Assembly (NCBI RefSeq): GCF_013376415.1
Contig: NZ_WYET01000007.1
Coordinates: 124,001 to 188,000 of the forward strand
Reading direction: 5' to 3'
DNA from: Flagellimonas chongwuensis
Lineage (GTDB): Bacteria; Bacteroidota; Bacteroidia; Flavobacteriales; Flavobacteriaceae
Length of the DNA stretch: 64,000 nt
The translations under genes were made by a program, and so were the position numbers. Shown piece after piece: positions 11,146 to 28,211 of this stretch (position 1 is the stretch's first letter; each line of letters begins with the position of its first letter). The notes beneath the pieces were generated by a model. That model was not told where the DNA came from. It did not search any database and saw nothing but the letters and a program-made list of their open reading frames with translations.

Positions 11146-12588
11146 ATGCTTTTCAATTCTTTTGAGTTCCTACTTTTTTTTCCAATAGTACTTTTAATGT
11201 ACTATCTGCTACCTCATAAACTACGGTGGCTGTTCTTATTGGCTTCAAGTTATTATTTCTATGCCGCATCGGAACCCTATCTGATTATCCTGTTGCTCAT
11301 ATCCACTCTGGTGGACTACTATTGCGGCCTAAAAATCGGCAATGTAGATCCCAGAAGGAAAAGATATTATCTATGGCTCAGCATAGTGGTCAACGTAGGT
11401 ATCCTTGTTGCCTTCAAGTACTTGTTTTTCTTCATTGATTCCACAAACAGCATCTTGGAATATTTTGGGGTAGAGATATCCTCTTCCGAACAGGTACAGT
11501 CCTACAGAATTGACCAAATCTTGTTACCGGTAGGTATCAGCTTCTATACTTTTCAGACTATGAGCTACACTATAGAGGTATACCGCGGCAATATGAGGCC
11601 GGAGAAACATCTTGGTAGATTCGCCCTTTTTGTTGCTTTCTTTCCGCAATTGGTCGCTGGCCCTATTGAAAAGGCCACTAGGCTGTTACCTCAGTTAAAA
11701 AAAACGATTTCTCCCGATATATCCCAAATCAAAAGAGGAATGATCATTATGGCATGGGGATTCTTTTTAAAGATTGTTGTGGCCGATCGTTTGGGCATTT
11801 ACGTGGACGCTGTGTATGCTGATCCAGACGGTCATCAGGGACTTCCCACTTTGTTGGCAGCTTTCTTTTTTGTTTTCCAGATATACTTTGATTTCGCTGC
11901 CTATACGTACATTGCCATAGGAGCTGCAAAGACCATGGGGATTTCATTGATCAATAATTTTAACAGACCTTTGTTCTCAATCAATATTACGCAGTTCTGG
12001 CAACGCTGGCATATATCGCTTACCCAATGGATCAGGGATTATCTCTATAGTCCTTTGAGAAGAAAGGCCCATTTAAATCGGTTGGTTTCCGTACTGTTGG
12101 TCTTCTTTATTATGGGACTATGGCACGGAGCCAATTGGACATTTGTGGTCTGGGGATTGCTCAATGCCTTGTTTTTGATAATTGAAGTGGCTACCAACAA
12201 ATGGAGAAAAAACATTTTTGACCGTTTGCACATCCCCTCCAAGCTTAGATCCATTATGGGTTGGGCAATATCATTTACTTTAATGATGCTATCCTTGATT
12301 TTCTTTAGATCGGCATCGATACAGGAGGCAATCCACTTTATTGGCAACCTTTTTGTTGTTCCAAACTTGCACATCAATGTACTCAACAACTATCTGGAGC
12401 TCTTTTTGAGCATCCTTTTGATCGTAGGTGTACAATGGGTTCACTTTGTTAAGGGGAACAATAGAATATATGAATTGGTGGAAGGGCGGCCAATTTGGGC
12501 CCGGTGGTCCATGTACTTGGCATATATCGCCATTATTGTGATGCTCGGCATCAATAGGCAAGAGAGTTTTATTTATTTTCAATTCTGA
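11146..12588 (+). CDS. MBOAT O-acyltransferase (AlgI/DltB type), copy 1
   Basis: A 480-residue polytopic membrane protein beginning MLFNSFEFLLFF, typical of the AlgI/DltB branch. Key sites are LLPVGISFYTFQTMSY (126-141), FPQLVAGPIE (166-175), QFWQRWHISLTQWIRDYLYSPL split across 283-304, and the catalytic-position His327 in GLWHGANWT. Such proteins pass an acyl group from a cytoplasmic donor (acyl-CoA or acyl-carrier protein) across the inner membrane to an SGNH partner that loads it on a glycan. The next gene, 5 bp downstream, encodes such a partner. The usual CDFSGYSDIAIG segment is altered to FDFAAYTYIAIG. The acyl group is unknown. A DltA/DltC-like pair in the same locus makes an aminoacyl or other thioester-bound donor plausible. 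Confidence 0.9.
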   Translation: MLFNSFEFLLFFPIVLLMYYLLPHKLRWLFLLASSYYFYAASEPYLIILLLISTLVDYYCGLKIGNVDPRRKRYYLWLSIVVNVGILVAFKYLFFFIDSTNSILEYFGVEISSSEQVQSYRIDQILLPVGISFYTFQTMSYTIEVYRGNMRPEKHLGRFALFVAFFPQLVAGPIEKATRLLPQLKKTISPDISQIKRGMIIMAWGFFLKIVVADRLGIYVDAVYADPDGHQGLPTLLAAFFFVFQIYFDFAAYTYIAIGAAKTMGISLINNFNRPLFSINITQFWQRWHISLTQWIRDYLYSPLRRKAHLNRLVSVLLVFFIMGLWHGANWTFVVWGLLNALFLIIEVATNKWRKNIFDRLHIPSKLRSIMGWAISFTLMMLSLIFFRSASIQEAIHFIGNLFVVPNLHINVLNNYLELFLSILLIVGVQWVHFVKGNNRIYELVEGRPIWARWSMYLAYIAIIVMLGINRQESFIYFQF

Positions 12589-12593
12589 TTGTA

Positions 12594-13529
12594 ATGAGAT
12601 ATTTTATCCTAAAACTCATTCTGTTTTTTACGCTATTTGCAATGGCATATGCGTTTATGGTCAATAAACTTTCCGAAGGTTATGTGGATATGTATTACCC
12701 TAAATATACCCAAGATGCCGGTAGTTTGGTGATTGGGCTCTCAAGGGCTGACCAAGGAATTGACCCCAAAACGGTGACTAAAAACATCAATCATGAAATA
12801 GATCTGCCATTGATAAATTTTGCAGCTAACCAGTACTATTATGGAGAGATATATCTGGAAGCCATCAGAAAGAAACTCATAAAGGCCAATGGCAAAGGCT
12901 TATTTATACTAAGTGTATCTCCAGGTAGCTTTACTGCCCCTATTGGCTTTGGAGCTGAAGGAATCAAAAAAATGGATGAGAAAGCCGCTATTGGAAAAAC
13001 CGAAGACTTCAACTCAAATCCCAACTATAGTTACATCATAAACTGTTATGGACAGGGGCTTTACCATGCCCTGTTTGCCCAAAGGGCACCAGGAAATGTA
13101 ATTACGCATAACAATGGATGGAACGAGGTCTTGGTATCCGGAAGTGACTTTACCCTGAGCGATGCTTTGAAAATGGACTGGAAAAGACAAAATCTTGCCT
13201 ATTTTCAACGTAGACTACCCAAGGAAGAAACTAAAAGTTATAGATGGGAATGGTTTGGAAGGACCATTGAGTACCTTAAGGACAAGGGACAGGTAATTTT
13301 GGTTAGAATGCCGGCCGACAAAGAAATTATTGATTTCGAAAATGAGAATTCCCCCAATTTTAGAAAGTCAATGGACAGCATTACAAAAATTCATCAAATT
13401 CCCTATCTCGACTATTCCAAAAATACCCCCGATTACGAAACCTATGATGGGTCGCACCTACATTCTGAGAGCGCTATCCAATTTTCTACACAATTGGCCA
13501 AGGATATGGCCGTTCATATAAAAAAGTGA
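12594..13529 (+). CDS. Membrane-anchored SGNH-like partner of MBOAT (DltD/AlgJ-like)
   Basis: A 311-residue protein with an N-terminal signal anchor (about 3-22) and a periplasmic domain. The sequence LVIGLSRADQGI (45-56) puts Ser50 at the SGNH nucleophile position, and YDGSHLHSE (284-292) gives Asp285 and His288 as the DxxH dyad. This is the architecture of DltD-like proteins that complete MBOAT-mediated acylation. It begins 5 bp after the MBOAT gene and ends 7 bp before the first GNAT of the tandem array, so all are probably on one transcript. The similarity is mainly in the active-site blocks, so the exact subfamily is uncertain. Confidence 0.75.
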   Translation: MRYFILKLILFFTLFAMAYAFMVNKLSEGYVDMYYPKYTQDAGSLVIGLSRADQGIDPKTVTKNINHEIDLPLINFAANQYYYGEIYLEAIRKKLIKANGKGLFILSVSPGSFTAPIGFGAEGIKKMDEKAAIGKTEDFNSNPNYSYIINCYGQGLYHALFAQRAPGNVITHNNGWNEVLVSGSDFTLSDALKMDWKRQNLAYFQRRLPKEETKSYRWEWFGRTIEYLKDKGQVILVRMPADKEIIDFENENSPNFRKSMDSITKIHQIPYLDYSKNTPDYETYDGSHLHSESAIQFSTQLAKDMAVHIKK

Positions 13530-13536
13530 TAGCCGC

Positions 13537-14574
13537 TTGATAAGTGAAAAAAAACATATAATTCCCCCACCATTTGATGGCCCGTATACTTCGGATACCT
13601 TCACCTCCATTTGGTCACAACACTTTGCAACAGGTTTGGAAACCATAAATGTTGATTATTTTGAAGGAATATCGTTTTATAAAAAAGGTAAGCTTGCCAT
13701 ATATAACAATGTTGGGGCCACTAATACAAAAGGTATTCACTACAGTACCAATCCCTCGTCCATGACCATTGTGAATGATAACAAGGTCTATCTTATTTAC
13801 GATGTTCCAGATTTTGGGTTCCGAGGCAAACAGATACCAAATGGCCTTAGATTGATTACCGTACCACAATACGAGGGCTACATTTGTGATTTGACCAATG
13901 AGAAGTCCGCCGAAGGATACCTCACTACCCAACTAAGCTCACGGAGCCGGTCCAAGTTGAGGAATTACGGAAATAAATTGAAAAAGAAATATTCGGTGGA
14001 ATACCAGATGATATGGGGCGATGTAGCAGAAAACCAATATGATGCCCTTTTTGAAAAATTCCATGAACTTCTTATCCGCCGGTTTGATGAAAAACAGGTG
14101 GTGAACAACAATCTTGACCCAAAAGAATGGTCTTTTTTTAAGGATGTCACTTTACCAATGATGCGCAATAAGGAGGCTGGTTTATTTGTTGGCTCTGTTC
14201 AGGGCAATCCAATAGCCATTACACTGCTTAATTTTTCCAAGGACCATGCCTATGACGTCATACGGGTTTTTGATATCGATTTTTCACAGTATAGGATAGG
14301 TAGTCTCAGTATAGTTGAGCAAATAGACTGGTGCATTAAAAACAGTTTTAAGATTCTGGACTTTTCCAAAGGTCAATTTGATTATAAGGAGAGATGGTGC
14401 AATCGTTCCTATATGCTAAATTATCATATCTGGTACAATCCCAAGAGCTTGATGAGCAGGGGAATTGCCATCCTATTGGCTACAAAGTTCAAACTTAAAT
14501 ACTGGGCGCGTAGACAGGGAATTCATAAAAGCTTGCATAAAATACGCTATAAACTGGGACACAAACCTAAGTAA
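13537..14574 (+). CDS. CelD/FemAB-like GNAT acyltransferase, array member 1
   Basis: A 345-residue GNAT-fold protein of the BioF2/CelD-like type (Pfam PF13480-like by pattern). The start is TTG at 13537, the only start near the end of the SGNH gene and 7 bp after it. Blocks shared with the other six members are YDVPDF (88-93), a basic helix around 138-150, RRFDEKQ (181-187), FDIDFSQYRIG (245-255), IDWC (263-266) and FSKGQFDYKERW (276-287). The last resembles the acyl-donor end of FemAB-type folds. It is one of three members without the extra C-terminal tail. It probably transfers an acyl or aminoacyl group to an amine. Donor and acceptor are unknown. Confidence 0.78.
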   Translation: MISEKKHIIPPPFDGPYTSDTFTSIWSQHFATGLETINVDYFEGISFYKKGKLAIYNNVGATNTKGIHYSTNPSSMTIVNDNKVYLIYDVPDFGFRGKQIPNGLRLITVPQYEGYICDLTNEKSAEGYLTTQLSSRSRSKLRNYGNKLKKKYSVEYQMIWGDVAENQYDALFEKFHELLIRRFDEKQVVNNNLDPKEWSFFKDVTLPMMRNKEAGLFVGSVQGNPIAITLLNFSKDHAYDVIRVFDIDFSQYRIGSLSIVEQIDWCIKNSFKILDFSKGQFDYKERWCNRSYMLNYHIWYNPKSLMSRGIAILLATKFKLKYWARRQGIHKSLHKIRYKLGHKPK

Positions 14575-14585
14575 AAAGTTGAACA

Positions 14586-15533
14586 ATGACTGGCCTTCCC
14601 AAGCACTATACCGACCATTGTCTGTTTCAGTTATACCTGAATAAAACCCTGCATGCCGTACACCAAGGGAAAGTTCAGAACCTGCTTGTGAATCGTTATT
14701 TATCACTAACCCCCTCAATCTATCAAGAAGATGGGAAATCATTTTATATAATCAAAGACGTACCCGACTATCTTTATTTTCAAGAACATGTTCCCCTTGA
14801 CCATGGCTTTATCAAGGTACCACAATATGATGGACATTTGGTCAACCTATTTACCTACCAAAACCTCTCTGAATATTTGAACGACCAGCTCAGTAAACGT
14901 AATATCAAAAATCTTAAGAGTAAAAAAAGGAAATTGGAATCCTTGGGGAAGATAGAATATAAGGTATTGTCCGGTGATTTGGCGGAATCTGAATATGAAA
15001 AAACATTCGTCCGTTTTAAAGAACTTCTGTCCAAAAGGTTTGATCAAAAGGGTATTCTAAACAGGGACCTTGCCCACTGGCAGCAATTGTATGGTTTTAC
15101 ACTGCCTAAGTTACGTGCGGACGAGGCCAAATTGTTTGTTATATATAAGGATAAATTACCCATATGCATTGCCTTGAACTACATTGTGGACCATGTAATG
15201 TTCAGTCATATCCAAACCTACGACATTGATTATTCACCATACAATTTGGGCGATATACATATGCAGTTCCAGCTGGAATGGTGTCTTTCCAATAATATTG
15301 ACATTTATGACGTTTCCAAGGGTACCAACCCTTACAAGGAAAAATGGTGTAACCATCGTTATCGTTTGTTCCACGAAATCGTATATTCAAAAAAATCCGT
15401 TGTGTGCATCATAAGGGCCAAGTCTAAAAAAATGAAACTGGACATCTTACAATGGCTTCGGAATATGGGAGTTTTGGGAAATCTAATAAAGGTAGACAAA
15501 TGGTTATATACCATAAATAAATGGCGCAAATAG
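14586..15533 (+). CDS. CelD/FemAB-like GNAT acyltransferase, array member 2
   Basis: The 315-residue protein is the shortest of the array. It has the family blocks DVPDYLYF (58-65), KRFDQKG (150-156), LFVIYKDKLPICIALNY (183-199), YDIDYSPYNLG (212-222), LEWC (230-233), and YDVSKG (241-246) followed by YKEKW. It ends soon after the core domain, with a lysine-rich tail but no extra domain. It starts 11 bp after member 1. Nearest by eye is member 1 (both have VPQYDG/VPQYEG before the central part), so these two may stem from the most recent duplication. Function as for a FemAB/CelD-like acyltransferase; substrates unknown. Confidence 0.78.
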   Translation: MTGLPKHYTDHCLFQLYLNKTLHAVHQGKVQNLLVNRYLSLTPSIYQEDGKSFYIIKDVPDYLYFQEHVPLDHGFIKVPQYDGHLVNLFTYQNLSEYLNDQLSKRNIKNLKSKKRKLESLGKIEYKVLSGDLAESEYEKTFVRFKELLSKRFDQKGILNRDLAHWQQLYGFTLPKLRADEAKLFVIYKDKLPICIALNYIVDHVMFSHIQTYDIDYSPYNLGDIHMQFQLEWCLSNNIDIYDVSKGTNPYKEKWCNHRYRLFHEIVYSKKSVVCIIRAKSKKMKLDILQWLRNMGVLGNLIKVDKWLYTINKWRK

Positions 15534-15566
15534 GTTATTTTCTATAACAGGTGAGAATCACTAATC

Positions 15567-16733
15567 ATGTCGAGAATTCTTAACATACTATCCAATCACA
15601 TCGATTTTCATGAACTTGTTCTTCTTGAAAAAAGAGCGGACAAGTTGTATCGCTGGATAAGGAATTCATTTACCGGCAATTTGACATATCAAAAAAAGCT
15701 TCCCCAAGAAAATCCTAACTACGGTGGACAAAGGCCCATGGTACTAACCAGTGTGCCTAATTATATTGATACGGAACTGGACCTTGGAACCGATATAATC
15801 ATTAAAAAAGTCCGGACCTTCCCTGGCTCATTGATAAAACTATCGGCCTATAAAAGTTACGAGGAGTACTTAAAAAAGACCTTTGATCAAAAAGGGCGGT
15901 CTCATTTTGCCAAATGTCAGAATCTCCTGAATGAGTGTTTTACCATCCGGCATCAGATCTATTATGGTTCCATGGAAAAAGAACAATACCAAATAGTTTT
16001 TAATGCTTTTGAGCAAATGCAGGCTAGGCGTTTTAAACAAAAGGGGATACAATCCGCTACTGATCCTATGCTATCGGAATACCGAGAAAAAACCTTGGAA
16101 CTTGTTCGCAATAAACAGGCTTGCATTTCGGTCATATATAACGGGGATACGCCCATCGCCATAAGTCTGAACTATATACTGGGAAAAATTATTCATGGTT
16201 TCACCAAAACCTTTGATTCGGCATATTCCAAATTTAGTCTAGGACACATTGAACTTCTCAATGTCATAAAGTGGTCTTTTGATGAAGGATTTGAAGTGTT
16301 CGATTTTATGAAAGGTGAATACAGCTACAAAAATAGGTTTGCAGATACCTCCTACCCTTTTTTGGTCGAAACCATATACCACAAGAAAGGAAGCTTAAAT
16401 CGCATTTGGGGCCATTCCGTTTTTTTGGGGCTAAAACTTTTTTATTTTATCTATCACGCAACAAGACTTGCTAAATCATCCAATCCCAAAAGGTCTAGGA
16501 ACATATCCAGAAATTTGTTGAAAGTTCAAAAGATACCTGTAGATGGTAGTACCACTAGCGTTGAGGAGAAAAGAGTACATTTCAATGAAATACAGAGCCA
16601 ATATATTCAAAAAGCCATCTGTGATTATTGTTATCACAACAGAGAGCCCATGGATTCCTTGAAATTTTATTTAAATGAGGACCATATAAAAATGATATCC
16701 AAGAAAGAAGTTCTGATATTTAAGGAGCTATAG
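15567..16733 (+). CDS. CelD/FemAB-like GNAT acyltransferase, array member 3 (with C-terminal tail)
   Basis: A 388-residue array member. Core blocks are TSVPNYID (61-68), ARRFKQKG (153-160), SVIYNGDTPIAISLNY (188-203), FDSAYSKFSLG (216-226), IKWSFDEGF (234-242) and FDFMKGEYSYKNRF (245-258). After the GNAT core it carries about 75 extra residues (about 310-388). The end of this tail (SLKFYLN, then VLIFKEL) resembles the ends of members 4, 5 and 7. It follows member 2 by 33 bp, the longest gap in the first part of the array. No frameshift or premature stop is seen, so it appears functional. Confidence 0.78.
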   Translation: MSRILNILSNHIDFHELVLLEKRADKLYRWIRNSFTGNLTYQKKLPQENPNYGGQRPMVLTSVPNYIDTELDLGTDIIIKKVRTFPGSLIKLSAYKSYEEYLKKTFDQKGRSHFAKCQNLLNECFTIRHQIYYGSMEKEQYQIVFNAFEQMQARRFKQKGIQSATDPMLSEYREKTLELVRNKQACISVIYNGDTPIAISLNYILGKIIHGFTKTFDSAYSKFSLGHIELLNVIKWSFDEGFEVFDFMKGEYSYKNRFADTSYPFLVETIYHKKGSLNRIWGHSVFLGLKLFYFIYHATRLAKSSNPKRSRNISRNLLKVQKIPVDGSTTSVEEKRVHFNEIQSQYIQKAICDYCYHNREPMDSLKFYLNEDHIKMISKKEVLIFKEL

Positions 16734-16739
16734 ACCAAT

Positions 16740-17936
16740 ATGAAGAACGTTTCCTTTTTAGCAGAGCTACTCGAAAAAGACAGTATTACCGAGCATGTAA
16801 GGTCTATCTCCCTAAAAAATGATCCTAGCAAGGTGTATCTAAACACCAACGATAGGCAGGAATCCATTGGAGAAAATGTGCTCTATACTGATGTACCGGG
16901 ATACTTGAATATTTCTTTTGCTCAAAACGGCCAGAAAAAATGGGAAAAATCAGTGGCTACTTTTGAAGGTTCCTATATTGATTTAAAGAAATACAATGAC
17001 CTTGACCATTTCTTAAAAAGCAAATTGAGTTCCAAAAGAGCGTCAAGATTAAGAGCCTACAAAAGAACCTTGGAAAAGGTATTCCCTATAGAATATCAAT
17101 ATTATTATGGTGAGATACAGGATCATACCTATGAAAAATTGATGAACACCTTGAAACGGATGGTCACCACGCGTTTTGATGAAAAGCAAATGAACCATAT
17201 GGCCCTCACGGAATGGGATCGATTCAAGGAACTAGGAAAAGGACTTATTCGAGAAAAAAAAGCATCCTTGATCGTAATTTACCATGGTGATGAGCCTATA
17301 CACATTTCCTTCAATTATATCTGGAAACAATTGGTTTTTGGCTATGTCAGGGGTTTCAACATTGATTACTCCAAGTTTTATCTGGGGTATATCGATATTA
17401 TGATCCAACTACAATGGTGTTTTGAGATGGGCTTCGAAATCTATGACCTTTTACGGGAAAATATGGAGTATAAACTTCGTTTTGCCGATCATACCTATCT
17501 CTATGCCAATCATATAACGGTTGCCAAACAAGGACCTTTTTCTATAATAAGTCCTTTAATAACTTGGCTCTCGCTCTCACTAAAATTTGACATCTATTAC
17601 CCATTCATTTCAAGATTAAGAGCCATTTACCACCGAATCCCATTCTTGCCCAAAAGAAAGGAAAAGAGAATTCAGCCCTTATACCAATTGGAAAAACTGG
17701 ACAAAGAACAATGGGCAAAAATGGACAAGGAAAGATTCTCGCAAACTGGAATAGACTCTTTGAACGAACCCTATGGCAAACGAGCCGTATATCACTTTTT
17801 GTACCTTTCCAAAGAGAAACTGGAGCATCTCAAAATCTACACCAGTTTGGACGATGAGCATTCAATTATTTTGGAATGCCCCGACAGTTTAGGAAAAGTC
17901 ATTTTCAAAAACAGAGTGGAAAAGCATGGGAAATAA
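16740..17936 (+). CDS. CelD/FemAB-like GNAT acyltransferase, array member 4 (with C-terminal tail)
   Basis: A 398-residue member, the longest of the array. The core shows DVPGYLNI (51-58), TRFDEKQ (144-150), LIVIYHGDEPIHISFNY (177-193), FNIDYSKFYLG (206-216), LQWCFEMGF (224-232) and YDLLRENMEYKLRF (235-248). In the last block the usual Lys-Gly is replaced by Arg-Glu, unlike the other members. A C-terminal tail from about 310 ends in LKIYTS, then SLGKVIFK. Its final 11 bp overlap the start of member 5 (ATGGGAAATAA), implying coupled translation. The changed motif could mean altered substrate or reduced activity. Confidence 0.77.
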   Translation: MKNVSFLAELLEKDSITEHVRSISLKNDPSKVYLNTNDRQESIGENVLYTDVPGYLNISFAQNGQKKWEKSVATFEGSYIDLKKYNDLDHFLKSKLSSKRASRLRAYKRTLEKVFPIEYQYYYGEIQDHTYEKLMNTLKRMVTTRFDEKQMNHMALTEWDRFKELGKGLIREKKASLIVIYHGDEPIHISFNYIWKQLVFGYVRGFNIDYSKFYLGYIDIMIQLQWCFEMGFEIYDLLRENMEYKLRFADHTYLYANHITVAKQGPFSIISPLITWLSLSLKFDIYYPFISRLRAIYHRIPFLPKRKEKRIQPLYQLEKLDKEQWAKMDKERFSQTGIDSLNEPYGKRAVYHFLYLSKEKLEHLKIYTSLDDEHSIILECPDSLGKVIFKNRVEKHGK

Positions 17937-19104
17937 ACCATCCAATAAAATCATCTTTTTGAGATCGCTATTAGCAGATGAAAGATTTCCTGATGCCATC
18001 GAAAAGGTGTTGGACTCCAGAAATGGCCTTCCACTCTATGAAAAAAAATCAGCCAAACCACTACTGATAGAAAATAAGTCCTTTGTCCTTCAAGATGTGC
18101 CCGGTTACGTAAATTTGATATTAGGTCAACATCAGAAAAAGTTTTCAATCCATACCATTACCACTCAACATACGCATGTAATAGAACTCGAGCGATATTT
18201 GGATGGGAACCAATACATGGAGCAACATTTTGGTCCAAAAACCCGGTCTGCCCTTAGAAGGTATAAAAAACGCTTGGAGGAATGTTTTGATATCCGATAT
18301 GAAGTATTTCAAGCCAACATCGATAAAAAATGGTACAATGAAATCTTTGAACAACTTAGAACACTCATGATAAGAAGGTTCAAAGAAAAGAACGAAGAGA
18401 ACTATGAACTGCCGCATCTTGACGAAATAAAGGCAGATCTGTACCCAATGCTATTGCAAAATCGGGCAACATTATTCGTCATATATGCAAATGGAGAACC
18501 CATCAGTATCAGGATCAATATGATGAAGGACAAACTGGCCTTTTACATACTCAGTGCGTATAATCCGGATTATGATGTGTTTCGATTGGGAAAATTGGAC
18601 ATGTGGCAAAATATTTCTTGGTTCATAAATCAAGGCTACATCGCATACGACCTGCTAAAAGGATATGCCTACATCAAGGAAAAATGGTCGGACAGAACGT
18701 ATGCCAACAACCTGGTTTTTGTAAACGGGAGCTCAAGTTTATGGAACCGGCTAAAGTTTTGCGGTACCCTAACAAGTTTGCGACTTAAGCACACCATGGT
18801 AAAAAAATTAAAATATATAGGGCTGGACAAAATCATACAGCGAACAAAAACAGGAAGAGCAAAACATCTTGACAAAGCCAACTATGTGGTTTTACCTTTG
18901 AAAGAAACAGAAGCCATCGAAATAATCCAAAAAAATGCCCGGATAAACCTAAAAGAAAACAAATCACTGATTGCACCGATTATTGAGCTAGCGTATAAAC
19001 ATCGATGCCGTTTCGACCAGATACAAGTGTTCTTAAAAAACGAAAAATCCATGGAATACTATATCCATATCAAGGACCGTTACTATTTTTTAAAGGTAAG
19101 TTGA
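17926..19104 (+). CDS. CelD/FemAB-like GNAT acyltransferase, array member 5 (with C-terminal tail)
   Basis: A 392-residue member that starts inside the end of member 4 (11 bp overlap). Core blocks are QDVPGYVNL (56-64), RRFKEKN (150-156), LFVIYANGEPISIRIN (183-198), YNPDYDVFRLG (212-222), ISWFINQGY (230-238) and YDLLKG (241-246) followed by YIKEKW. The tail (about 300-392) ends with IQVFLKNEK and YYFLKV, matching the tail pattern of members 3, 4 and 7. Members 4 and 5 share DVPGY, so they may be sister copies. Donor and acceptor cannot be predicted. Confidence 0.77.
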   Translation: MGNKPSNKIIFLRSLLADERFPDAIEKVLDSRNGLPLYEKKSAKPLLIENKSFVLQDVPGYVNLILGQHQKKFSIHTITTQHTHVIELERYLDGNQYMEQHFGPKTRSALRRYKKRLEECFDIRYEVFQANIDKKWYNEIFEQLRTLMIRRFKEKNEENYELPHLDEIKADLYPMLLQNRATLFVIYANGEPISIRINMMKDKLAFYILSAYNPDYDVFRLGKLDMWQNISWFINQGYIAYDLLKGYAYIKEKWSDRTYANNLVFVNGSSSLWNRLKFCGTLTSLRLKHTMVKKLKYIGLDKIIQRTKTGRAKHLDKANYVVLPLKETEAIEIIQKNARINLKENKSLIAPIIELAYKHRCRFDQIQVFLKNEKSMEYYIHIKDRYYFLKVS

Positions 19105-19126
19105 TCCCTTCCAAAACCACAGACCA

Positions 19127-20101
19127 ATGAGAGCTAGGTTTCTTCTTGACATACTTTTGGGGCCTTCCCATATCATAAAACCTGTCCTTACGGGCAAGGT
19201 GGATGACGAGGGGAGATATCAGGTGTCATTGGGCGAAAACCAAGATAAGGATAAGACTTACACCATAATCGATGTGCCCGACCATCAACCGGTAAAATTT
19301 ATGGAATCGCTTGCTTCCCATAGCAGGCTTGTTTCTCCTCTATACCAAGGTTATCTTATAGAATTAAACGGACACGATAGCTTCGAAGATTATTTCAGGG
19401 CACGTTTTAACGCAAAAGGAGCCAGAAATCTAAGGAGGCAAGGTAAAAAGCTTATCAAGGAAACCTTTGCCCGTAAGGTCACTTATTACGGAAATACAGA
19501 AAGAGAAACTCTGGACATGCTATTTGAAAAATTGGGCCAGTTCTTGGAAAAGCGGTTTGAGCAAAAGGAAGTGTCCAACTATGAGATTCCACTCTTGCCC
19601 CTTTATAAAAAGATGTTCCAAAAATTGCTCCCAGAAAAAAAAGCTGTGATTTTTTCCTTGCTCGATGGGAACGACCCCATAGCTTTGGGCATCGGTTTTA
19701 TTTATGGAGATACGCTTTATCTTTTCAATATTGCATATGATATGGACTACTCCCAATATGGGCCGGGAAACCAAATTATGATAGAGGCCGTGGCTTGGTG
19801 CTTTGATAACGGTATCACCCGTGTAGATATGGGCCGGGGCGATTTTTTACACAAAAGAAAATGGGTAAATACTTCGTACACTTATACACAAATAGACCTG
19901 TACGACCCTAAAAATATTGGAACAAGGTTGCGGGCTTTACTTTCTTGGACCTTGAACACCTCTCGCTTTTATGGAATCCGATTCCTAAAAAAACTACAGG
20001 TGCACCAATTGGCCAAAAGATGGTTTATTTGGAAATATAGGGTCAAAGGTCTGCTAAGTGCTAAAAAAAATCATTCCCAAAAAAATATATCTGAGTCCTG
20101 A
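19127..20101 (+). CDS. CelD/FemAB-like GNAT acyltransferase, array member 6
   Basis: A 324-residue member without the extra tail. Core blocks are IDVPDHQPV (48-56), KRFEQKE (142-148), DPIALGIGFIYG (183-194), YDMDYSQYGPG (204-214), AWCFDNGI (223-230) and VDMGRGDFLHKRKW (233-246). The end of the core (MGRGD) differs from the SKG/MKG of its relatives. By eye this is one of the most diverged members. Its ATG lies 22 bp after member 5 and its stop is 2 bp before member 7. Confidence 0.77.
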   Translation: MRARFLLDILLGPSHIIKPVLTGKVDDEGRYQVSLGENQDKDKTYTIIDVPDHQPVKFMESLASHSRLVSPLYQGYLIELNGHDSFEDYFRARFNAKGARNLRRQGKKLIKETFARKVTYYGNTERETLDMLFEKLGQFLEKRFEQKEVSNYEIPLLPLYKKMFQKLLPEKKAVIFSLLDGNDPIALGIGFIYGDTLYLFNIAYDMDYSQYGPGNQIMIEAVAWCFDNGITRVDMGRGDFLHKRKWVNTSYTYTQIDLYDPKNIGTRLRALLSWTLNTSRFYGIRFLKKLQVHQLAKRWFIWKYRVKGLLSAKKNHSQKNISES

Positions 20102-20103
20102 CC

Positions 20104-21276
20104 ATGAGCAAAGTAAAACACATAAATATCTTTCAATCCCTTTATGAACGGGGGAACTTGCCCATGGAATTGATGTATGCCAAAATAATGGACACCTCTT
20201 TAGAAGAGGATGGATATACATGGCTTCAACAGGGCAAAAATGCAATTTCGTGTCGTTTAGTCCCCTCCTATTTTACGGTTGACCAATTATTCTCATGCAA
20301 CATCAGAACTGTTGATCAATACAATTGGGGGTATTCCATTGATCTCTCCAATTGCTCCTCCATCGATGACTACCTATCTTCACAGTTCAAATCAAAGCCA
20401 AGGAGTATCATTCGACGTTATGTCAACAGACTGGAAACTTGTTTCCCAATATCATACAAGCTGTATCATGGGGAACTTGAAAAGGAGATTTACAACGCTG
20501 TTTTTGATTCACTACGTGATATGATCAAGAAACGGTTTCAAGAACGCGAAGAGACCCATAAAGAAATGTGGAGATGGGAAGGACTAAAACAAAACACCTA
20601 TCAACAAATCTTAAACAAGCAGGCCTCGTTATTTGTGATTTATGATGGAAACAAACCCATAGAGATATCCTTAAATTATCATATGGGTCCAGTTCTTTTC
20701 AGTTCGGTATCGTCATACGACCTTGACTACGGAAAGTTCGGCCTTGGCCATGTAGAAATCTACAAACAGCTGGAGTGGTGCCTATCCAATGGATATAAAT
20801 TATTTGAAATGGGTGTCGGCGGAATGGATTACAAAAGAAAATGGAGCAACCATATCTACCAGTTTTCTCACTGGATAATAACCCCAAAAGAAAATTTTTT
20901 CCTAGGGTTGGTCGGTAAGATTGAACTCTGGAAGGTTCGTCTGAAGGAATATCTAAAATCAAAAAAAATGAACGAACTCCGTGATAGGGTTATTGAACTC
21001 ATCAATTTTGATAAAACAAAGAAAATAGTTTTGGATGAAGTTGATTTTTCAACTGAAGCAGTCAATGGTCACATCGACTTTCAAATGCTAACGCTGTTAA
21101 CTCCCAAAGAGGTGGAACAGATAGAAGGGCTTAGAAAGGCTATTAACGATTTTCTCTATACCAATACCTTGGGCTACTCAAAAATCAAAGTATATAAGGC
21201 CAATAGCAATTCCAGAGGCTTTTTGGTAGGATATAATTACCAAGGAAAAGATAAATTCATCGAACTAACACGCTAA
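20104..21276 (+). CDS. CelD/FemAB-like GNAT acyltransferase, array member 7 (with C-terminal tail)
   Basis: The 390-residue last member of the array. Core blocks are CRLVPSYF (50-57, where the usual Asp before VP is Leu), KRFQERE (143-149), LFVIYDGNKPIEISLNY (176-192), YDLDYGKFGLG (205-215), LEWCLSNGY (223-231) and FEMGVGGMDYKRKW (234-247). The tail from about 300 ends with IKVYKANSN and FIELTR, like members 3-5. It starts 2 bp after member 6. After it comes a 323 bp gap, so the array transcript probably ends here. Confidence 0.77.
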   Translation: MSKVKHINIFQSLYERGNLPMELMYAKIMDTSLEEDGYTWLQQGKNAISCRLVPSYFTVDQLFSCNIRTVDQYNWGYSIDLSNCSSIDDYLSSQFKSKPRSIIRRYVNRLETCFPISYKLYHGELEKEIYNAVFDSLRDMIKKRFQEREETHKEMWRWEGLKQNTYQQILNKQASLFVIYDGNKPIEISLNYHMGPVLFSSVSSYDLDYGKFGLGHVEIYKQLEWCLSNGYKLFEMGVGGMDYKRKWSNHIYQFSHWIITPKENFFLGLVGKIELWKVRLKEYLKSKKMNELRDRVIELINFDKTKKIVLDEVDFSTEAVNGHIDFQMLTLLTPKEVEQIEGLRKAINDFLYTNTLGYSKIKVYKANSNSRGFLVGYNYQGKDKFIELTR

Positions 21277-21599
21277 TAAAATTAAACAAACCACTATTGG
21301 CTAGATTAATTAGGAACATATTAAATAAATTATGTCGTCTAATTTGAGCATTATATCATAAAAATATCCCTATTGATAATTTCTCTTTTTATTTTTAAAC
21401 CATATAGACAAATAAAAGAATTAGGCTGGCTTAATTAAAAGCCTATCAATAAAAAAAGATGACAATATACTCCCCAAAATTGTCTTTTCCTGAACTTATT
21501 TATTATGATAAATCATTTTATACTTATTGATATGGGCCAGACCAAATCATGGTGCTTTACCCCATTGGCAAATAACATTTTGAAACAGGGATAAGGCTT
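21277..21599. other. AT-rich intergenic gap between GNAT array and ligase operon
   Basis: This 323 bp AT-rich stretch splits the plus-strand island into two transcription units. It has a weak terminator-like hairpin (GACAAT at 21461-21466 pairing with ATTGTC at 21479-21484, then TTTT) and a short dyad around 21422-21445. A 20-codon reading frame at 21532-21594 has no recognisable similarity and is not called a gene. No TAnnTTTG promoter box was found, although a promoter for the next unit is expected here. Confidence 0.4.
21461..21488 (+). terminator. Weak hairpin plus T-tract after the GNAT array
   Basis: A 6 bp stem (GACAAT/ATTGTC) with a 12-base loop is followed by TTTT. It is short and A/T-rich and lies 185 bp after the stop of the last array gene, so termination here is possible rather than clear. 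Confidence 0.25.
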
Positions 21600-22700
21600 A
21601 TGAACAAAAATGATCTACAGGTAGTTTTTTTGACTAAAAAAGAACTACGAGAATATCTTCAATCCCCACAGGACCAGCGTACATATCAATTACCTTTTTC
21701 CCTGAACAAGGCACAATGGCTCTTGGACAAACCGGGACTTGATGAAAACGATCTCTTGGCCGTAATGGCAGTTTCAAGAGGGGAACTACTGAGTTTTGCC
21801 CACTTGGTGCCGGATTTCCTGTCTTCACCCGACCAAGATACCGGAACTAAGATATACTGGATAGTGCAATGGTGGGCGGCACCTTCTGTCAAAAGTACTG
21901 TTGTCTCTACCTATGTTTTTAGTGAAGCCCTACGGTTGAGCAACAACATGGCATTGACCAAGGCCTATGAAGAAAATGCCGATACCTTTTATAAAAAGCA
22001 ACCTTTCACTGTCATCGGAACCATGGACCGGCACACCATTTTTATAGGGGCAGCCAAGGACATGGTAAACCAAAAGCTACATTTACCCAAATGGTTGAGC
22101 CCCATTACGAGTTGGGTGGAATCCATTTCAATGAAATACTATAATGCCATCAATAGTTCACGGATAAATACTCTGACAAAGGATTTAGACCTCAGGTATA
22201 TGAACCAATTGGATGGAGAGGCTTGGAATTTTATTCAACCTTACATCCAAAGTGACTTGGCTGCAAAAAGTTTGGCCCAAATCAATTGGCAATTGGACCC
22301 TAGGCAGTATGTATCAAAACCATGGAACCATGGTAAAATGGATGGTTCAAAAATTAAGGGATTTGCCGAGAGGATAGGCATTGTCAGCTTTCTTGTGTAC
22401 CGTGATGGGAAGTCGATCGGTTTTATTTCCTTCCACTACATACACAGTACGGCCTATATGAAATATTGTATTGCCAACGATGCCGATATGCCAATGGTAT
22501 GTGCTTGTTTATATAAGAACCTATACAAATTGAACATTTCTTATATGTTCACGGACAATCAAACTTTGGCGGAACATTTCACCAAGACCTTGTCCGTTTT
22601 TTATCATTATCGTCAAACCAAAAAGTCCATGGCACATAATACCTTGCACAAAGAACTACAGGTATCGCAATTGGCCGAACAGGATGGACACTTTATTTAA
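21600..22700 (+). CDS. Orphan GNAT-like acyltransferase preceding the ligase
   Basis: A 366-residue protein not assigned to a known family with certainty. The C-terminal part (about 205-345) looks like a GNAT fold, with FLVYRDGKSIGFISFHYI (about 258-275) as a beta-hairpin like the central strands of acyltransferases. The N-terminal half contains WIVQWWAAPSVKS and shows no motif I recognise. It lacks the signature blocks of the seven-member array, so it is a separate type. It starts a new transcript unit after a 323 bp gap and is followed after 9 bp by the adenylate-forming ligase and then the carrier protein. That makes a role in using or making the carrier-bound acyl group likely (inference). 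Confidence 0.6.
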   Translation: MNKNDLQVVFLTKKELREYLQSPQDQRTYQLPFSLNKAQWLLDKPGLDENDLLAVMAVSRGELLSFAHLVPDFLSSPDQDTGTKIYWIVQWWAAPSVKSTVVSTYVFSEALRLSNNMALTKAYEENADTFYKKQPFTVIGTMDRHTIFIGAAKDMVNQKLHLPKWLSPITSWVESISMKYYNAINSSRINTLTKDLDLRYMNQLDGEAWNFIQPYIQSDLAAKSLAQINWQLDPRQYVSKPWNHGKMDGSKIKGFAERIGIVSFLVYRDGKSIGFISFHYIHSTAYMKYCIANDADMPMVCACLYKNLYKLNISYMFTDNQTLAEHFTKTLSVFYHYRQTKKSMAHNTLHKELQVSQLAEQDGHFI

Positions 22701-22709
22701 CCCAGCAAT

Positions 22710-24203
22710 ATGAAATTTCTCGAGACCCTTCAAAATTCCATTGAGGTACACAGTGACCGAAATGCTTTTTTTATCAACGGAAATCATTATACCTATCGGG
22801 AACTGGGTACGGCCATAACGGCAATTAGAGTGGCCATACAGAAAGAAATACCATTATCTGAGAAATATGTGGGACTGATCACCAATGATGACTTGGAGAC
22901 CTATGCGGCTATCATTGCGCTTTGGTTCGAGGGGAAAGCCTATGTTGCCATCAATCCCATTTATCCCAAATCAAGAAACGAAGAGATTCTTGCCCAGACC
23001 AATTCAATGTTTGTAATGGACTCTTCACCATCACCGTATTTTGAAAAGGGGTTTAAGGTCATTACAACCCATACGCTGGATATGGTTGATAATAATGACC
23101 TTTCTGCTCCCAAAAAAGTGGAGCCAAACGATATTGCCTATGTCATCTTTACATCGGGAAGTACGGGCATACCTAAAGGGGCTCCGGTCAGTTTCAAGAA
23201 CCTGAACGGTTTTGCCAATGCCATTGACAACAACCTTTCCTTCTCGCTTTCCGAGACAGACCGTTGCCTACAAATGTTCGAATTGACCTTTGACATGTCT
23301 GTGGTATCCTACCTTGCCCCTTTGTTAAAAGGAGCTTGTGTATATACGGTGCCAAAGGATAGCATCAAGTATTTTCAGATCATTAAATTGTTATCCGAGC
23401 ACCAACTTACCCTGTTGATCATGGTTCCCTCAATTATTCATTTCCTAAGACCTTATTTCAAAGAAATTCGAAGTGAAAGCGTCCGATATTCCTGTTTTGC
23501 CGGAGGCAAACTCTATAGTGATATTGGCAAGGAGTGGAACGCATGTATTCCAAATGCCCAGATCATCAACTACTATGGCCCTACCGAGACCACCATATAT
23601 TGTGGAGGTTATCTCTTTGACAAAGAAGGGAACAACAAAGAGGAAAACGGAGTGGTGTCCATAGGCAAACCTTTTGACAATACCACCTATTTGGTCATCG
23701 ATGAAAACAACAATGAAGTAGAAGATGGACAAACGGGAGAATTATGTATTGCGGGGGAGCAATTGTTCCCTGGTTATATCCAAAACGAAGAAAGGAACAA
23801 GCTAGTCTTTTTTGAAAAACAACATAATGGTAAATCTCTACGGTTTTACAAATCAGGCGATATGTGTTATCGTGATCAAGATGGGGATTATATGTATGTG
23901 GGCCGTGCCGACTTTCAGGTTAAAATAAGAGGGTTCCGTGTGGAACTGGGGGAAATTGAATACCACGTAAAGAAAAAATTACCGGGCTTGGATATCACGG
24001 TAATCGATTTGGATGACGGGAACGGAAATACCGAACTCGGTCTTGCCGTTTGTTCGAAGGAAATAGACTTGAAACCTACCCTTTCATATTTGAAGGAAAA
24101 CTTACCTCCATATATGATTCCAACAAGGTTCCTATTTGTAGACAAATTGCCTCACAGTGTCAATGATAAAATTGATATGAAGAAACTTAGAACACTTTTT
24201 TAA
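22710..24203 (+). CDS. DltA-like AMP-forming ligase (stand-alone adenylation enzyme)
   Basis: The 497-residue ANL-superfamily enzyme activates a carboxylic acid, often an amino acid, as an acyl-AMP and loads it on a carrier protein. Core motifs are FTSGSTGIPKG (147-157, phosphate loop), NYYGPTETTIY (about 287-297), YKSGDMCYRDQDG (about 385-397), GRADFQVKIRGFRVELGEIE (the hinge region) and Lys487 in NDKID as the adenylation lysine. The length and layout match DltA and stand-alone NRPS adenylation enzymes without condensation or thioester domains. The substrate cannot be read from the pocket by eye. A carrier protein follows 21 bp downstream, completing a DltA/DltC-type pair. Confidence 0.88.
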   Translation: MKFLETLQNSIEVHSDRNAFFINGNHYTYRELGTAITAIRVAIQKEIPLSEKYVGLITNDDLETYAAIIALWFEGKAYVAINPIYPKSRNEEILAQTNSMFVMDSSPSPYFEKGFKVITTHTLDMVDNNDLSAPKKVEPNDIAYVIFTSGSTGIPKGAPVSFKNLNGFANAIDNNLSFSLSETDRCLQMFELTFDMSVVSYLAPLLKGACVYTVPKDSIKYFQIIKLLSEHQLTLLIMVPSIIHFLRPYFKEIRSESVRYSCFAGGKLYSDIGKEWNACIPNAQIINYYGPTETTIYCGGYLFDKEGNNKEENGVVSIGKPFDNTTYLVIDENNNEVEDGQTGELCIAGEQLFPGYIQNEERNKLVFFEKQHNGKSLRFYKSGDMCYRDQDGDYMYVGRADFQVKIRGFRVELGEIEYHVKKKLPGLDITVIDLDDGNGNTELGLAVCSKEIDLKPTLSYLKENLPPYMIPTRFLFVDKLPHSVNDKIDMKKLRTLF

Positions 24204-24224
24204 ATAAAATAGAATTACAAAGCA

Positions 24225-24470
24225 ATGACAAACGACGAAAAGATATTGACTGAGCTTAAAGAAATATTCATAGAGACCCTTGGTCACGATAATTTTGAGC
24301 TCGATGGGAACACCACGGCCAACGATGTTGACGGTTGGGATTCCGTGACACACATGATGCTCATCAATGAGGTCGAGAAGAAATATGACATGAAGTTCTC
24401 TTTAATGGACCTAATGAGCCTTGAAAGAGTGGCCGATTTGGTGAAGGCCATAGAAAATAGACAGGCTTAG
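24225..24470 (+). CDS. Acyl/peptidyl carrier protein (DltC-like)
   Basis: An 81-residue carrier protein. The phosphopantetheine attachment site is Ser40 in GWDSVTHM (37-44). The rest folds as a four-helix ACP (LTELKEIFIETLG at the start, VEKKYDMKFSLMDLMSL after the site). It would be charged by the ligase encoded just upstream and hand the thioester-bound group to an MBOAT or GNAT acyltransferase. It is short, has no additional domain and is distinct from a fatty-acid AcpP in lacking the usual DSLDTVE pattern. It ends convergently, 9 bp from the minus-strand SGNH gene. Confidence 0.88.
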   Translation: MTNDEKILTELKEIFIETLGHDNFELDGNTTANDVDGWDSVTHMMLINEVEKKYDMKFSLMDLMSLERVADLVKAIENRQA

Positions 24471-24479
24471 ATTTATGAA

Positions 24480-25439
24480 CTAGTTGATAATACCGGCGAC
24501 TTTTAAATCTTCTACCAATAGTTCCGCAATCAAGGTACGTCCAAAATTGTTCCAATGCCTATCGTACACCAAAGTGGTATTACGATCGGCATTGTTGAGC
24601 TTTTGTCCAAAATCGATGTAATCAAAACCATTGGTATCCAAATAGTCTAAAAACAGTTTTGGCGTTGTGGACACATCCATCAACAGAACGGTCTTGTCCT
24701 TGTCATATCCGTACAGGGCCACTAAATTCTTAAAGTTTTCAAGGAACATTTTATCTTTTGATTCCGTCTTCTGCTGTGTTACCGATTTTGACCTGCTTGA
24801 ACCCTGCACCAACATCCTGGCATCATTGATCATGTTCTTAACCGGTGTCAGTGCTCCTATTTCCGAGAGGTACACCAACAACTTACTTTTTTTTAAGGCT
24901 TTGTTCAAGGGCGACTCCAAATTCAACCTTTCGCTCTGTATATAATACTCTCCCCTATTGAGATCGTTGGAGAATTTCATTTTGATATATATGCGGTCTA
25001 TCAACTCAAAGTCTTCCCGGTAGGCATGGATCAAATGCATTTGGTCTGCCATATCATAACCGGCATAACCATATTCAAACACTTTTATTTTTTCCCCTAG
25101 TTCCAATTCTATTTTTCTGCCTATAGAAGATTTATAGGGCTGGTGAAATCCTTCGATAAAGGAATCACCTACCAAGGCAACTTCATAACCATCTTCGGTG
25201 GGCTCAAACTCTTGGTAAGAATTAAAACCTGAACTATTTATATTATATCGTACAAAGTTTTGGTTTCTATTACCGGTAACAGAATACCCCTCTTGGTTCG
25301 GTCTCCATTTTTCAACCCTGTTTTCGTCCACAAAACGGGATGGCTTATCTTCTCCGAGATAAAATATCCGGACTAAGACTTCCAAGGAAATCAGGATGAG
25401 AAAAGCATAAACCCCTAATTTGATGACTAACTTTTTCAT
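24480..25439 (-). CDS. SGNH hydrolase-like membrane-anchored acyltransferase partner, copy 2
   Basis: A 319-residue protein with a signal anchor at 5-27 and a periplasmic SGNH domain. ALVGDSFIEGF (88-98) gives Ser93 as nucleophile, YGYAGYDMADQM holds the Gly/Asn block region, and YDRHWNNFG (292-300) gives Asp293 and His295. This layout is that of AlgX/AlgJ or DltD-type partners of MBOAT proteins. It starts 2 bp after the stop of the second MBOAT gene. It is not obviously a close copy of the first SGNH protein, whose block I is GLSR rather than GDS, so the two pairs probably have different acceptors. Confidence 0.82.
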   Translation of the reverse strand: MKKLVIKLGVYAFLILISLEVLVRIFYLGEDKPSRFVDENRVEKWRPNQEGYSVTGNRNQNFVRYNINSSGFNSYQEFEPTEDGYEVALVGDSFIEGFHQPYKSSIGRKIELELGEKIKVFEYGYAGYDMADQMHLIHAYREDFELIDRIYIKMKFSNDLNRGEYYIQSERLNLESPLNKALKKSKLLVYLSEIGALTPVKNMINDARMLVQGSSRSKSVTQQKTESKDKMFLENFKNLVALYGYDKDKTVLLMDVSTTPKLFLDYLDTNGFDYIDFGQKLNNADRNTTLVYDRHWNNFGRTLIAELLVEDLKVAGIIN

Positions 25440-25441
25440 GG

Positions 25442-26896
25442 TTAAAACTGGAAATATATGAACGATCTATCAAAACCACTATCGTAGAACAATAGCATGG
25501 CAAAAATGACCAGGGCATACGCTAAAAAACGGACAGACTTCGATTTGAACTGGAACGGATTCCTTTCATCTCTTCGGATTCGATACTCATAAAGAACAAA
25601 TACGGCCAGAAGGATAAAGTAATCCAACATACGATACCCATTGGGATGCTCATACGGTGCATAACTAAAGTCACTGAATATTCTCCCTATAAAGTTGAAG
25701 GAGTCTGTCAACGATTCGGACCTAAAGAAAATACGGGAAAAAGTAACGATACCGAACGTAAGTACCAATTGGCCCAATTCAATCAAGGAGGGAAAGAAAG
25801 AATTTTCACCTACAACATTATCCTTATAAATGGTATTTCTTCCCATTAAAAACACAGGAATGTACGCTAAGGCATGGAAACCTCCCCAAAAGATAAAGGT
25901 CCAATTGGCACCGTGCCAAAATCCGCTCACCAAAAATATGATACAGATATTTCGTAATGCCCTTGCTTGGCCCACACGCGATCCTCCCAGCGGGATATAT
26001 ACATAGTGCCTAAACCAAGTGGATAGCGATATGTGCCACCTTTGCCAATACTCGGCAACATTTCTTGAGAAGTTCGGGAACTTGAAATTGGACATCAATT
26101 CCACTCCGAACAATTTGGCCGTACCAATGGCTATGTCGGAATATCCACTAAAATCACCATAAACTTGGAAACTGAATAGTGTTACACCCAATATCAGGGT
26201 GGATGCGGGATATGTTTCATGATTCAAGAAAATATCATCCACAATCGGCGCTATGCCATCCGCTATCACCAACTTTTTAAAAAGTCCCCAAAGAATGAGT
26301 TTCAGCCCACTTACTATTTGATTATAGTTAAACGTTCTCTTATTCGTAATTTGATGTAATAAATTAGAAGCCCGCTCGATGGGACCAGCCACCAATTGTG
26401 GAAAGAATGCAACAAAGGTCGCAAAGGATAGAAAATCGTGGCAAGGCTTTATTCTTTTGTAATAAATATCCATGGAGTAGGACATCGTTTGGAAGGTATA
26501 GAAGGAAATCCCCACTGGCAATATAATCTTGAGTGTCCAAGTACTTTTGATGGAATATCCCATAACCTCAAATAGGTCTATAAAGGAATCCACAAAAAAA
26601 TTATAGTACTTAAAGAAACCGAGCAAGGATATATTGAAAATGACACTTGCCCATAACCACAATTTCTGCTTTGGCCTATCGCCCTCGTTCCTGTGGATCA
26701 TGATGCCCACAAAATAATCTACGGCCGTACTGGCAATTATAAGAAACAAAAACCTCCAGTCCCAGAGCCCATAAAAAAAATAGCTTCCAACAAGAACAAG
26801 CGTATTTTGAAGTCTTAATCCCTTACCAAGAACGAACCAGTACAAAAGGAACATTATCGGCAGAAAAATAAAATACTCAAGGGAGTTGAACAACAT
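25442..26896 (-). CDS. MBOAT O-acyltransferase (AlgI/DltB type), copy 2
   Basis: A 484-residue polytopic protein starting MLFNSLEYFIFL. It shows KIILPVGISFYTFQTMSY (123-140), FPQLVAGPIERAS (165-177), QVYGDFSGYSDIAIGTAKLFG (split over 244-264), YWQRWHISLSTWFRHYVYIPLG (283-304) and catalytic-position His328 in GFWHGANWT. Compared with copy 1, it keeps the classical DFSGYSDIAIG segment. It forms a unit with the SGNH gene immediately downstream. The OmpA-family gene ends 31 bp upstream on the same strand, so they may be co-transcribed. The acyl donor could be the carrier protein encoded opposite (24225-24470) or acyl-CoA. This is not decided by the sequence. Confidence 0.9.
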   Translation of the reverse strand: MLFNSLEYFIFLPIMFLLYWFVLGKGLRLQNTLVLVGSYFFYGLWDWRFLFLIIASTAVDYFVGIMIHRNEGDRPKQKLWLWASVIFNISLLGFFKYYNFFVDSFIDLFEVMGYSIKSTWTLKIILPVGISFYTFQTMSYSMDIYYKRIKPCHDFLSFATFVAFFPQLVAGPIERASNLLHQITNKRTFNYNQIVSGLKLILWGLFKKLVIADGIAPIVDDIFLNHETYPASTLILGVTLFSFQVYGDFSGYSDIAIGTAKLFGVELMSNFKFPNFSRNVAEYWQRWHISLSTWFRHYVYIPLGGSRVGQARALRNICIIFLVSGFWHGANWTFIFWGGFHALAYIPVFLMGRNTIYKDNVVGENSFFPSLIELGQLVLTFGIVTFSRIFFRSESLTDSFNFIGRIFSDFSYAPYEHPNGYRMLDYFILLAVFVLYEYRIRRDERNPFQFKSKSVRFLAYALVIFAMLLFYDSGFDRSFIYFQF

Positions 26897-28097: not shown

Positions 28098-28115
28098 TCT
28101 TAATGATTTGAGGTT

Positions 28116-28142
28116 AACGCTTTCAAAGCTATGTTAAGCGTT
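28116..28142 (-). promoter_or_regulatory. Candidate -7 box inside an inverted repeat upstream of the OmpA gene
   Basis: On the minus strand TAGCTTTG (28131-28124) fits TAnnTTTG and would start transcription about 20 bases before the ATG at 28097. It lies within an inverted repeat, AACGCTT (28116-28122) and AAGCGTT (28136-28142), so a repressor bound there would cover the promoter. No TTG is present at the usual -33 spacing. Confidence 0.35.
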
Positions 28143-28211
28143 CTAATCTTGGAACTTTGCCCTTTCAAGTGCGCTATTTATCGATAAGAAGTAGGAATAA
28201 TATTGAAAAGA

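Follow-up and report, generated by a model that had tools for sequence, protein, structure and literature searches.

Whether the acyltransferases, ligase and carrier protein clustered in a polysaccharide locus of Flagellimonas chongwuensis act as one Dlt-like chain or as separate systems is the question raised by a 64,000-nucleotide stretch of its genome (RefSeq assembly GCF_013376415.1, contig NZ_WYET01000007.1, positions 124,001 to 188,000), hereafter called the window. A sequence-only reading of window positions 11146–26896 had described an MBOAT/SGNH pair, seven tandem GNATs, an orphan GNAT-like protein, a ligase, a carrier protein and a second MBOAT/SGNH pair in one block beside glycan-initiation genes, and had proposed a candidate Dlt-like acylation system, read as a multi-acyl decoration pathway for a surface glycan or lipid. 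All of these parts were confirmed to be intact and in place, and they were found to form three separable modules: the ORPH-LIG-CP cassette, the GN array with MBOAT1/SGNH1, and MBOAT2/SGNH2. The resemblance of GN1–GN7 to enzymes that draw amino acids from transfer RNA (tRNA) suggests that the glycan carries amino acids or short peptides.

Results

The block begins on the plus strand with the O-acyltransferase MBOAT1 (11146–12588) and its partner SGNH1 (12594–13529), followed by the seven GN transferases (13537–21276) and the cassette of ORPH (21600–22700), LIG (22710–24203) and CP (24225–24470). SGNH2 (24480–25439) and the locus-boundary O-acyltransferase MBOAT2 (25442–26896) lie on the opposite, minus strand and are convergent with the CP gene.

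The modules were found apart in related genomes. In G589 and G630, the genes for FADGNAT and GNAT0 (two further transferases described below), SugTr2, FmtL, MBOAT1, SGNH1, GN1–GN7, SGNH2 and MBOAT2 stand in window order at 72–94% identity, but ORPH-LIG-CP is missing and about 45 bases separate GN7 from SGNH2. Neither ORPH nor LIG had any match anywhere in these two genomes, which are very alike and were taken as one event; gain and loss of the cassette are both compatible with this comparison. MBOAT1-SGNH1 with an array of five to seven GNs was also present in five further ligase-less genomes (G581, G598, G600, G626 and G120). The cassette in turn occurs without GNs: G603 and G121 gave no GN match, and none lay in 20 kb of G387. 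Purifying selection acts on all seven GNs, with ratios of nonsynonymous to synonymous substitution rates (dN/dS) of 0.13–0.25 against L017, which has the cassette, and 0.14–0.20 against G589, which lacks it. No ratio was obtained for MBOAT1 against L017, where a paralog was matched and the ortholog lay outside the locus, or for SGNH2 against G589, where the comparison was saturated. Since the block and the selection on the GNs persist without the cassette, the array and the MBOATs need neither ligase nor carrier. The selection and the recurrence of the arrangement in relatives also bear out that the block is real and not noise.

The distribution of the cassette was determined in 199 Flavobacteriaceae genomes (one per genus code, the window's own included) and in 71 genomes of the genus. 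Family-sample ligases were counted at about 50% identity or more, which set aside three of 12 matches (30–34% identity, NRPS-like, that is, resembling non-ribosomal peptide synthetases, or distant), and four places that coincide by coordinates in two collections (L017/G580, L018/G635, L019/G603 and L020/G625) were each counted once. Ligases of this clade were found in nine of the 199 family genomes and ORPH in the same nine (Fisher p 9e-16), and in the genus the cassette is patchy, with LIG and ORPH both in the same 6 of 71 genomes (Fisher p 7e-9); as the genomes are related, these p values are a guide only. In a wider phylum draw of 395 genomes, with five candidates scored per genome, ORPH was found in three, one of them weak and partial, and a search for plasmid carriage of ORPH gave no match.

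A tree of 23 ligases and three outgroup rows separated type A (17 rows, including the window) from type B (six rows), with support of 93/95 for type B and a weak 34/40 for the type A grouping. ORPH was directly upstream of the ligase on the same strand and CP was downstream in 17/17 type-A loci, and in none of these 17, the window included, did any of the four genes following LIG encode an MBOAT on the same strand. At all six type-B loci, no ORPH stood beside the ligase and an MBOAT came after CP; at one of them an additional gene preceded CP, and an SGNH gene could be recognised at five. This split in tree and neighbourhoods indicates that the Dlt-like order is present in relatives but that the window ligase is of the other kind. 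The expectation that the parts would co-occur in related genomes was therefore borne out only in part: they do co-occur, but as separable modules, and the true LIG-CP-MBOAT order belongs to the sister ligase clade.

LIG, which is 95% identical to the ligase of Allomuricauda abyssi W52, is a stand-alone amino-acid adenylation enzyme (AMP-binding, 1.5e-58) that scored 320.1 bits against TIGR01733, above the cut-off of 317.4. Its best PDB matches were NRPS modules. Against the DltA equivalog TIGR01734 it reached 252.5 bits, under the cut-off of 559.85, which was passed by 0/31 family genomes versus 2/14 controls. In the amino-acid pocket, Asp and Lys were present in all 23 ligases; the pocket letters of LIG read DMVICAYIYK by GrsA-PheA numbering and vary among type-A ligases. 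CP (PP-binding PF00550, 3.6e-7) has its serine in the motif DGWDS, and a W-x-S serine was seen in all 24 carriers shown.

ORPH had no Pfam match of its own, and Acetyltransf_1 was touched by eight of 17 orthologs with E values of 1 or less, the strongest being 2.7e-5. Its predicted model is a dual-GNAT protein with an N-myristoyltransferase (NMT) fold over the whole length. By sequence it does not fall in the NMT family: PF01233 was touched by 2/17 orthologs (best E 0.087), and the PDB sequence-profile matches of ORPH at E up to 5 were at chance level and included no NMT. No relation was found between ORPH and the GN profile. The catalytic base of NMT is its C-terminal carboxylate. The chain ends of ORPH and NMT coincide in the alignment, and the end DGxFx is conserved in 19/19 orthologs.

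Type-A loci of other genera had a sugar transferase, PglD-like or formyltransferase gene a few genes away in 11 of 12 cases, counting the formyltransferase of G121. Near the cassette in relatives, genes for PylC-like and sugar-transfer-associated ATP-grasp proteins and for a pyridoxal phosphate-dependent decarboxylase-type protein were also seen (L045:13294-14385, L037:17052-19328 and L032:14714-15757), which adds to the amino-acid chemistry encoded in loci of this type.

The array consists of GN1 (13537–14574, TTG start), GN2 (14586–15533), GN3 (15567–16733), GN4 (16740–17936), GN5 (17926–19104), GN6 (19127–20101) and GN7 (20104–21276), all on the plus strand. Each exceeded the Pfam cut-off of 22 bits for Acetyltransf_6 (PF13480), at 31.9–67.5 bits (GN1, 4.2e-13), and 45/45 GNs across relatives matched this family. 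Two more plus-strand genes extend the original inventory and belong to the set: FADGNAT (5872–8484), in which NAD_binding_9 (PF13454, 1.5e-16) is fused to a FemAB-like domain (PF04339, 1e-9), and GNAT0 (8504–9556), a FemAB-group transferase with PF13480. These make nine PF13480 proteins, and all nine genome matches listed fall in the locus. FADGNAT is longer (about 1230 amino acids) in G006 and G072, probably by fusion with GNAT0.

GN1 shares only 23–32% identity with GN2–GN7. In a tree of 67 proteins, array positions P1, P2, P5, P6 and P7 each formed a single clade, and P3 and P4 were intermixed, probably through local duplication. GN3, a lineage-specific extra, clusters with P4-type rows; a P3 of this kind in seven-member arrays was confined to part of the genus, and G070 has a separate extra P4-like copy of its own. 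Across 12 arrays with 78 labelled GNs, the seven position labels required seven changes on the tree (minimum 6; shuffled mean 52.9). A 13th array (G120, five GNs, unlabelled) was placed in the order P2, P3/P4, P5, P6, P7, and the 13 arrays span six genera. In five of the six position clades, the GNs of G598 and G626, both of the window's genus, grouped closer to members from other genera (supports 77–99), which suggests that the array was transferred as a whole. Recent or redundant duplication of the GNs was rejected on the positional clades and the purifying selection. Other arrangements also exist, as in L090, L091 and G617, where a GN1-like member is accompanied by several GN7-like members.

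At E 1e-10, GN profiles were found in 46 of the 199 family genomes, including eight of the nine ligase genomes (p 4e-5); only five of the nine had six or more GNs. Within the genus, GNs occurred in 44 of 71 genomes at E 1e-30, with no association with the ligase (5/6 versus 39/65, p 0.25).

The predicted model of GN7 shows the dual-GNAT FemX fold, and the first 18 rows of the structure comparison were FemX, FemA, Sba18/Sbb17 and MprF-type synthases. PDB sequence profiles of GN yielded chance-level matches only; the profile of the GNAT0/FADGNAT group matched FemX at 1.4e-13. Of the 45 GNs, 17 matched ATE_C, eight FemAB_like and one Acetyltransf_1. PF02388 (FemABX) was absent from the 19 families that these GNs matched at E 0.05; it was found in 10 of 13 members of the GNAT0/FADGNAT group (best 2.2e-14) and was not listed for the window's own GNAT0 and FADGNAT. 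A confidently predicted C-terminal extension of roughly 80–100 residues was observed in GN7 (window 20971–21276), and the ends of GN3, GN4 and GN5 also carry one, but those of GN1, GN2 and GN6 do not.

MBOAT1 (PF03062, 1.4e-22) and MBOAT2 (PF03062, 6.6e-28) both end in the acyl-shuttle motif FIYFQF. This motif and the sequence WHG were present in 38/38 MBOATs examined, and the WHG histidine, the C-terminal FXYXXF and an adjoining SGNH partner place both window pairs among MBOAT-SGNH transferases. MBOAT1 reached 170 of the 375 bits required by the DltB model. The SGNH partners had no Pfam match; those of the window carry G-x-S and D-x-x-H type motifs (GLS...DGSH in SGNH1, GDS...DRHW in SGNH2), a pattern found in most partners and missed in some, and SGNH1 follows MBOAT1 in syntenic loci. 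A simple hydropathy scan indicated several membrane segments in the MBOATs, one N-terminal hydrophobic segment in each SGNH protein and none in GN1–GN7, ORPH, LIG or CP.

In the MBOAT tree, five rows formed the MBOAT1 clade and 13 the MBOAT2 clade. Rows received the MBOAT2 label on the basis of 60% identity with MBOAT2 of the window, and the single-clade status of this group is therefore partly built in. Both clades were present in ligase-less genomes, and MBOAT2 relatives at 69–78% occurred in 11 of 20 GN loci fetched from such genomes. Seven MBOATs follow a carrier gene, one of them next to an FkbH-type protein and the others in type-B cassettes; six of the seven formed one clade apart from those of MBOAT1 and MBOAT2.

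The type-B LIG-CP-MBOAT cassettes of L015, L016, L024, L025, L026 and L027 represent a real Dlt-like order in Gram-negative Flavobacteriaceae, and in G019 and G070 type A and type B lie about 30 kb apart. In G070, an FkbH_N protein, a carrier, an MBOAT and an SGNH gene stand in a row (L038:13609-17942) beside a type-B LIG-CP-MBOAT-SGNH cassette. FkbH presumably provides a glyceryl-type acyl group, which might be exported there through the same MBOAT route.

The block lies in a polysaccharide locus, as the earlier reading had recognised from the glycan-initiation genes beside it. To its left are a GT4 glycosyltransferase (2508–3668, plus strand, PF00534), the initiating sugar-phosphate transferase SugTr1 (3865–4518, plus, PF02397), the amino-sugar N-acetyltransferase-like proteins PglD1 (4558–5199, plus) and PglD2 (5229–5882, plus; both PF17836), a second initiating sugar transferase, SugTr2 (9598–10236, minus, PF02397), and the formyltransferase FmtL (10249–10860, minus, PF00551). 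The 20 kb before the window contain two nucleotide-sugar dehydrogenases, a polysaccharide-synthesis membrane protein, a pyruvyltransferase, an EpsG-like protein and two MBOAT genes. These two (L031:8446-10830 and L031:17577-19970) bring the number of MBOAT genes to four in about 38 kb; one is followed by an SGNH1-like gene and the other adjoins a gene that matches DUF1574 weakly. In many mapped relatives, the right border of the locus corresponds to window 26928–29817, with OmpA-like, small unknown and BshA-like (glycosyltransferase) genes. The tRNA and Rfam scans gave zero matches, and scans for the Bacteroidota-type promoter pattern, sigma-70 and terminators gave no excess over shuffles. This gene context supports the view that the locus serves multi-acyl decoration of a surface glycan in Flavobacteriaceae.

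Discussion

We consider a three-module reading of this surface-polysaccharide locus to have slightly better than an even chance of being correct, and infer the following donors, acceptors, products and order of steps. In the first module, GN1–GN7, GNAT0 and FADGNAT would be cytoplasmic FemX-type transferases, most likely with aminoacyl-tRNA as the donor, acting on the amino group of a lipid- or nucleotide-linked sugar precursor and then on one another's products. The separate, non-redundant jobs of the positions would yield a glycan bearing a short peptide or several amino acids. An acyl group, probably from coenzyme A (CoA), would be loaded by MBOAT1 onto the tyrosine in its FIYFQF tail and passed across the membrane to SGNH1, to be placed on the exported glycan. 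In the second module, LIG may activate a small alpha-amino acid and load it on CP, from which ORPH would move it to an amine in the cytoplasm. The cassette would thus be an optional add-on, probably attaching one more amino acid, and not a source feeding the MBOATs. MBOAT2/SGNH2, the third module, would be a second, independent O-acylation pair. For both pairs of the window, the acyl-shuttle route is the simplest explanation; exceptions to it are the type-B and FkbH cassettes of relatives, which have a carrier gene ahead of the MBOAT.

In a Dlt-like chain, LIG would activate an amino acid, CP would carry it, and MBOAT1/SGNH1 or MBOAT2/SGNH2 would export it as a glycan ester, with the GNATs as separate acetyltransferases. 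An adenylation enzyme, a carrier, an FXYXXF MBOAT and an SGNH partner do adjoin in the window, the sister ligase clade has the order LIG-CP-MBOAT-SGNH, and the type-A ligases of the genus are convergent with SGNH2-MBOAT2. Two loci also weigh against the three-module reading: in type-A G044, ORPH is immediately preceded by a same-strand MBOAT-SGNH pair, and the carrier-adjacent MBOAT of L026 sits on a long branch near MBOAT1. However, the carrier of the window is not followed by a same-strand MBOAT and SGNH as in the Dlt operon. The carrier cassette goes with ORPH, the ligase is far under the DltA cut-off and MBOAT1 under that of DltB, the other carrier-following MBOATs form a clade of their own, the window MBOAT clades are kept without a ligase, and the shuttle motif is fused to the window MBOAT. 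The chain was rejected as the principal reading of the window on cut-offs, trees and neighbourhoods, and is kept as a rival that we regard as quite improbable.

It is also conceivable, although unlikely, that GN1–GN7 are acetyl-CoA or acyl-CoA N-acyltransferases, each acting on a different amino sugar, with no tRNA and no peptide involved; the FemX, FemA, Sba18/Sbb17 and MprF-type rows that head the structure comparison, and the excess of ATE_C and FemAB_like matches over Acetyltransf_1, argue against this. ORPH-LIG-CP could further be an unrelated small-molecule or lipopeptide cassette that landed in the locus by chance, in keeping with the NRPS-like character of LIG and the patchy occurrence of the cassette in the genus. 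This explanation is very doubtful, given the glycan-type genes near the cassette in nearly all type-A loci of other genera.

The main novelty of the locus is its FemX-type battery, and the second is the NMT-fold, carrier-dependent cassette. FemX adds one glycine to the Gram-positive peptidoglycan bridge, and FemA and FemB two each, whereas seven ordered paralogs plus two are found here in a Gram-negative glycan locus, with an acceptor that is probably not peptidoglycan. Sba18/Sbb17 are aminoacyl-tRNA-dependent but work as single enzymes in the pathway of streptothricin-type antibiotics, with no surface-polymer battery. To our knowledge, the FemAB-like proteins of exopolysaccharide loci have no settled job. 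ORPH differs from NMT in being bacterial, in its marginal sequence link and in its predicted donor, an aminoacyl-carrier rather than myristoyl-CoA. PatAB-type O-acetylation shares the WHG histidine, the C-terminal FXYXXF and the SGNH partner with the window pairs (PMC12148441), but here four MBOAT genes lie together. HfsK of the Caulobacter holdfast is a soluble FemX-like GNAT thought to modify a surface polysaccharide (PMC5362036); it is a single gene under cyclic di-GMP control, with no array. Among the matches listed from open-licence PMC papers, no description of the present combination was found. Those listed for a possible precedent in the tetronate/perosamine of V. cholerae O1 were unrelated tetronate papers, and no argument is built on that analogy.

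Taken jointly, the FemX-type enzymes, nine in all, could constitute a non-ribosomal assembly line, dependent on tRNA, for peptides on the surface glycan of a Gram-negative bacterium; seven of the nine stand in a cross-genus order (six positions everywhere, the seventh in one lineage) and seem to move together. A further amino acid would be added without tRNA by the optional cassette, through a carrier and a bacterial NMT-fold enzyme whose own chain end would serve as catalyst, and sister ligase-carrier pairs would be coupled alternately to an N-acyltransferase or to MBOAT/SGNH export. This combined proposal is tentative, and we rate it as more doubtful than not. The locus offers seven FemAB-like proteins at once, in conserved order, with natural strains that have or lack the carrier cassette, so that donor, acceptor and product can be tested. 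If the proposal is true, the surface glycans of marine Flavobacteriaceae would carry tRNA-derived amino acids or peptides, the N-myristoyltransferase fold would work in bacteria on carrier-bound substrates, and one kind of ligase-carrier pair could supply N-acylation within the cell in some cases and Dlt-type O-acylation outside it in others.

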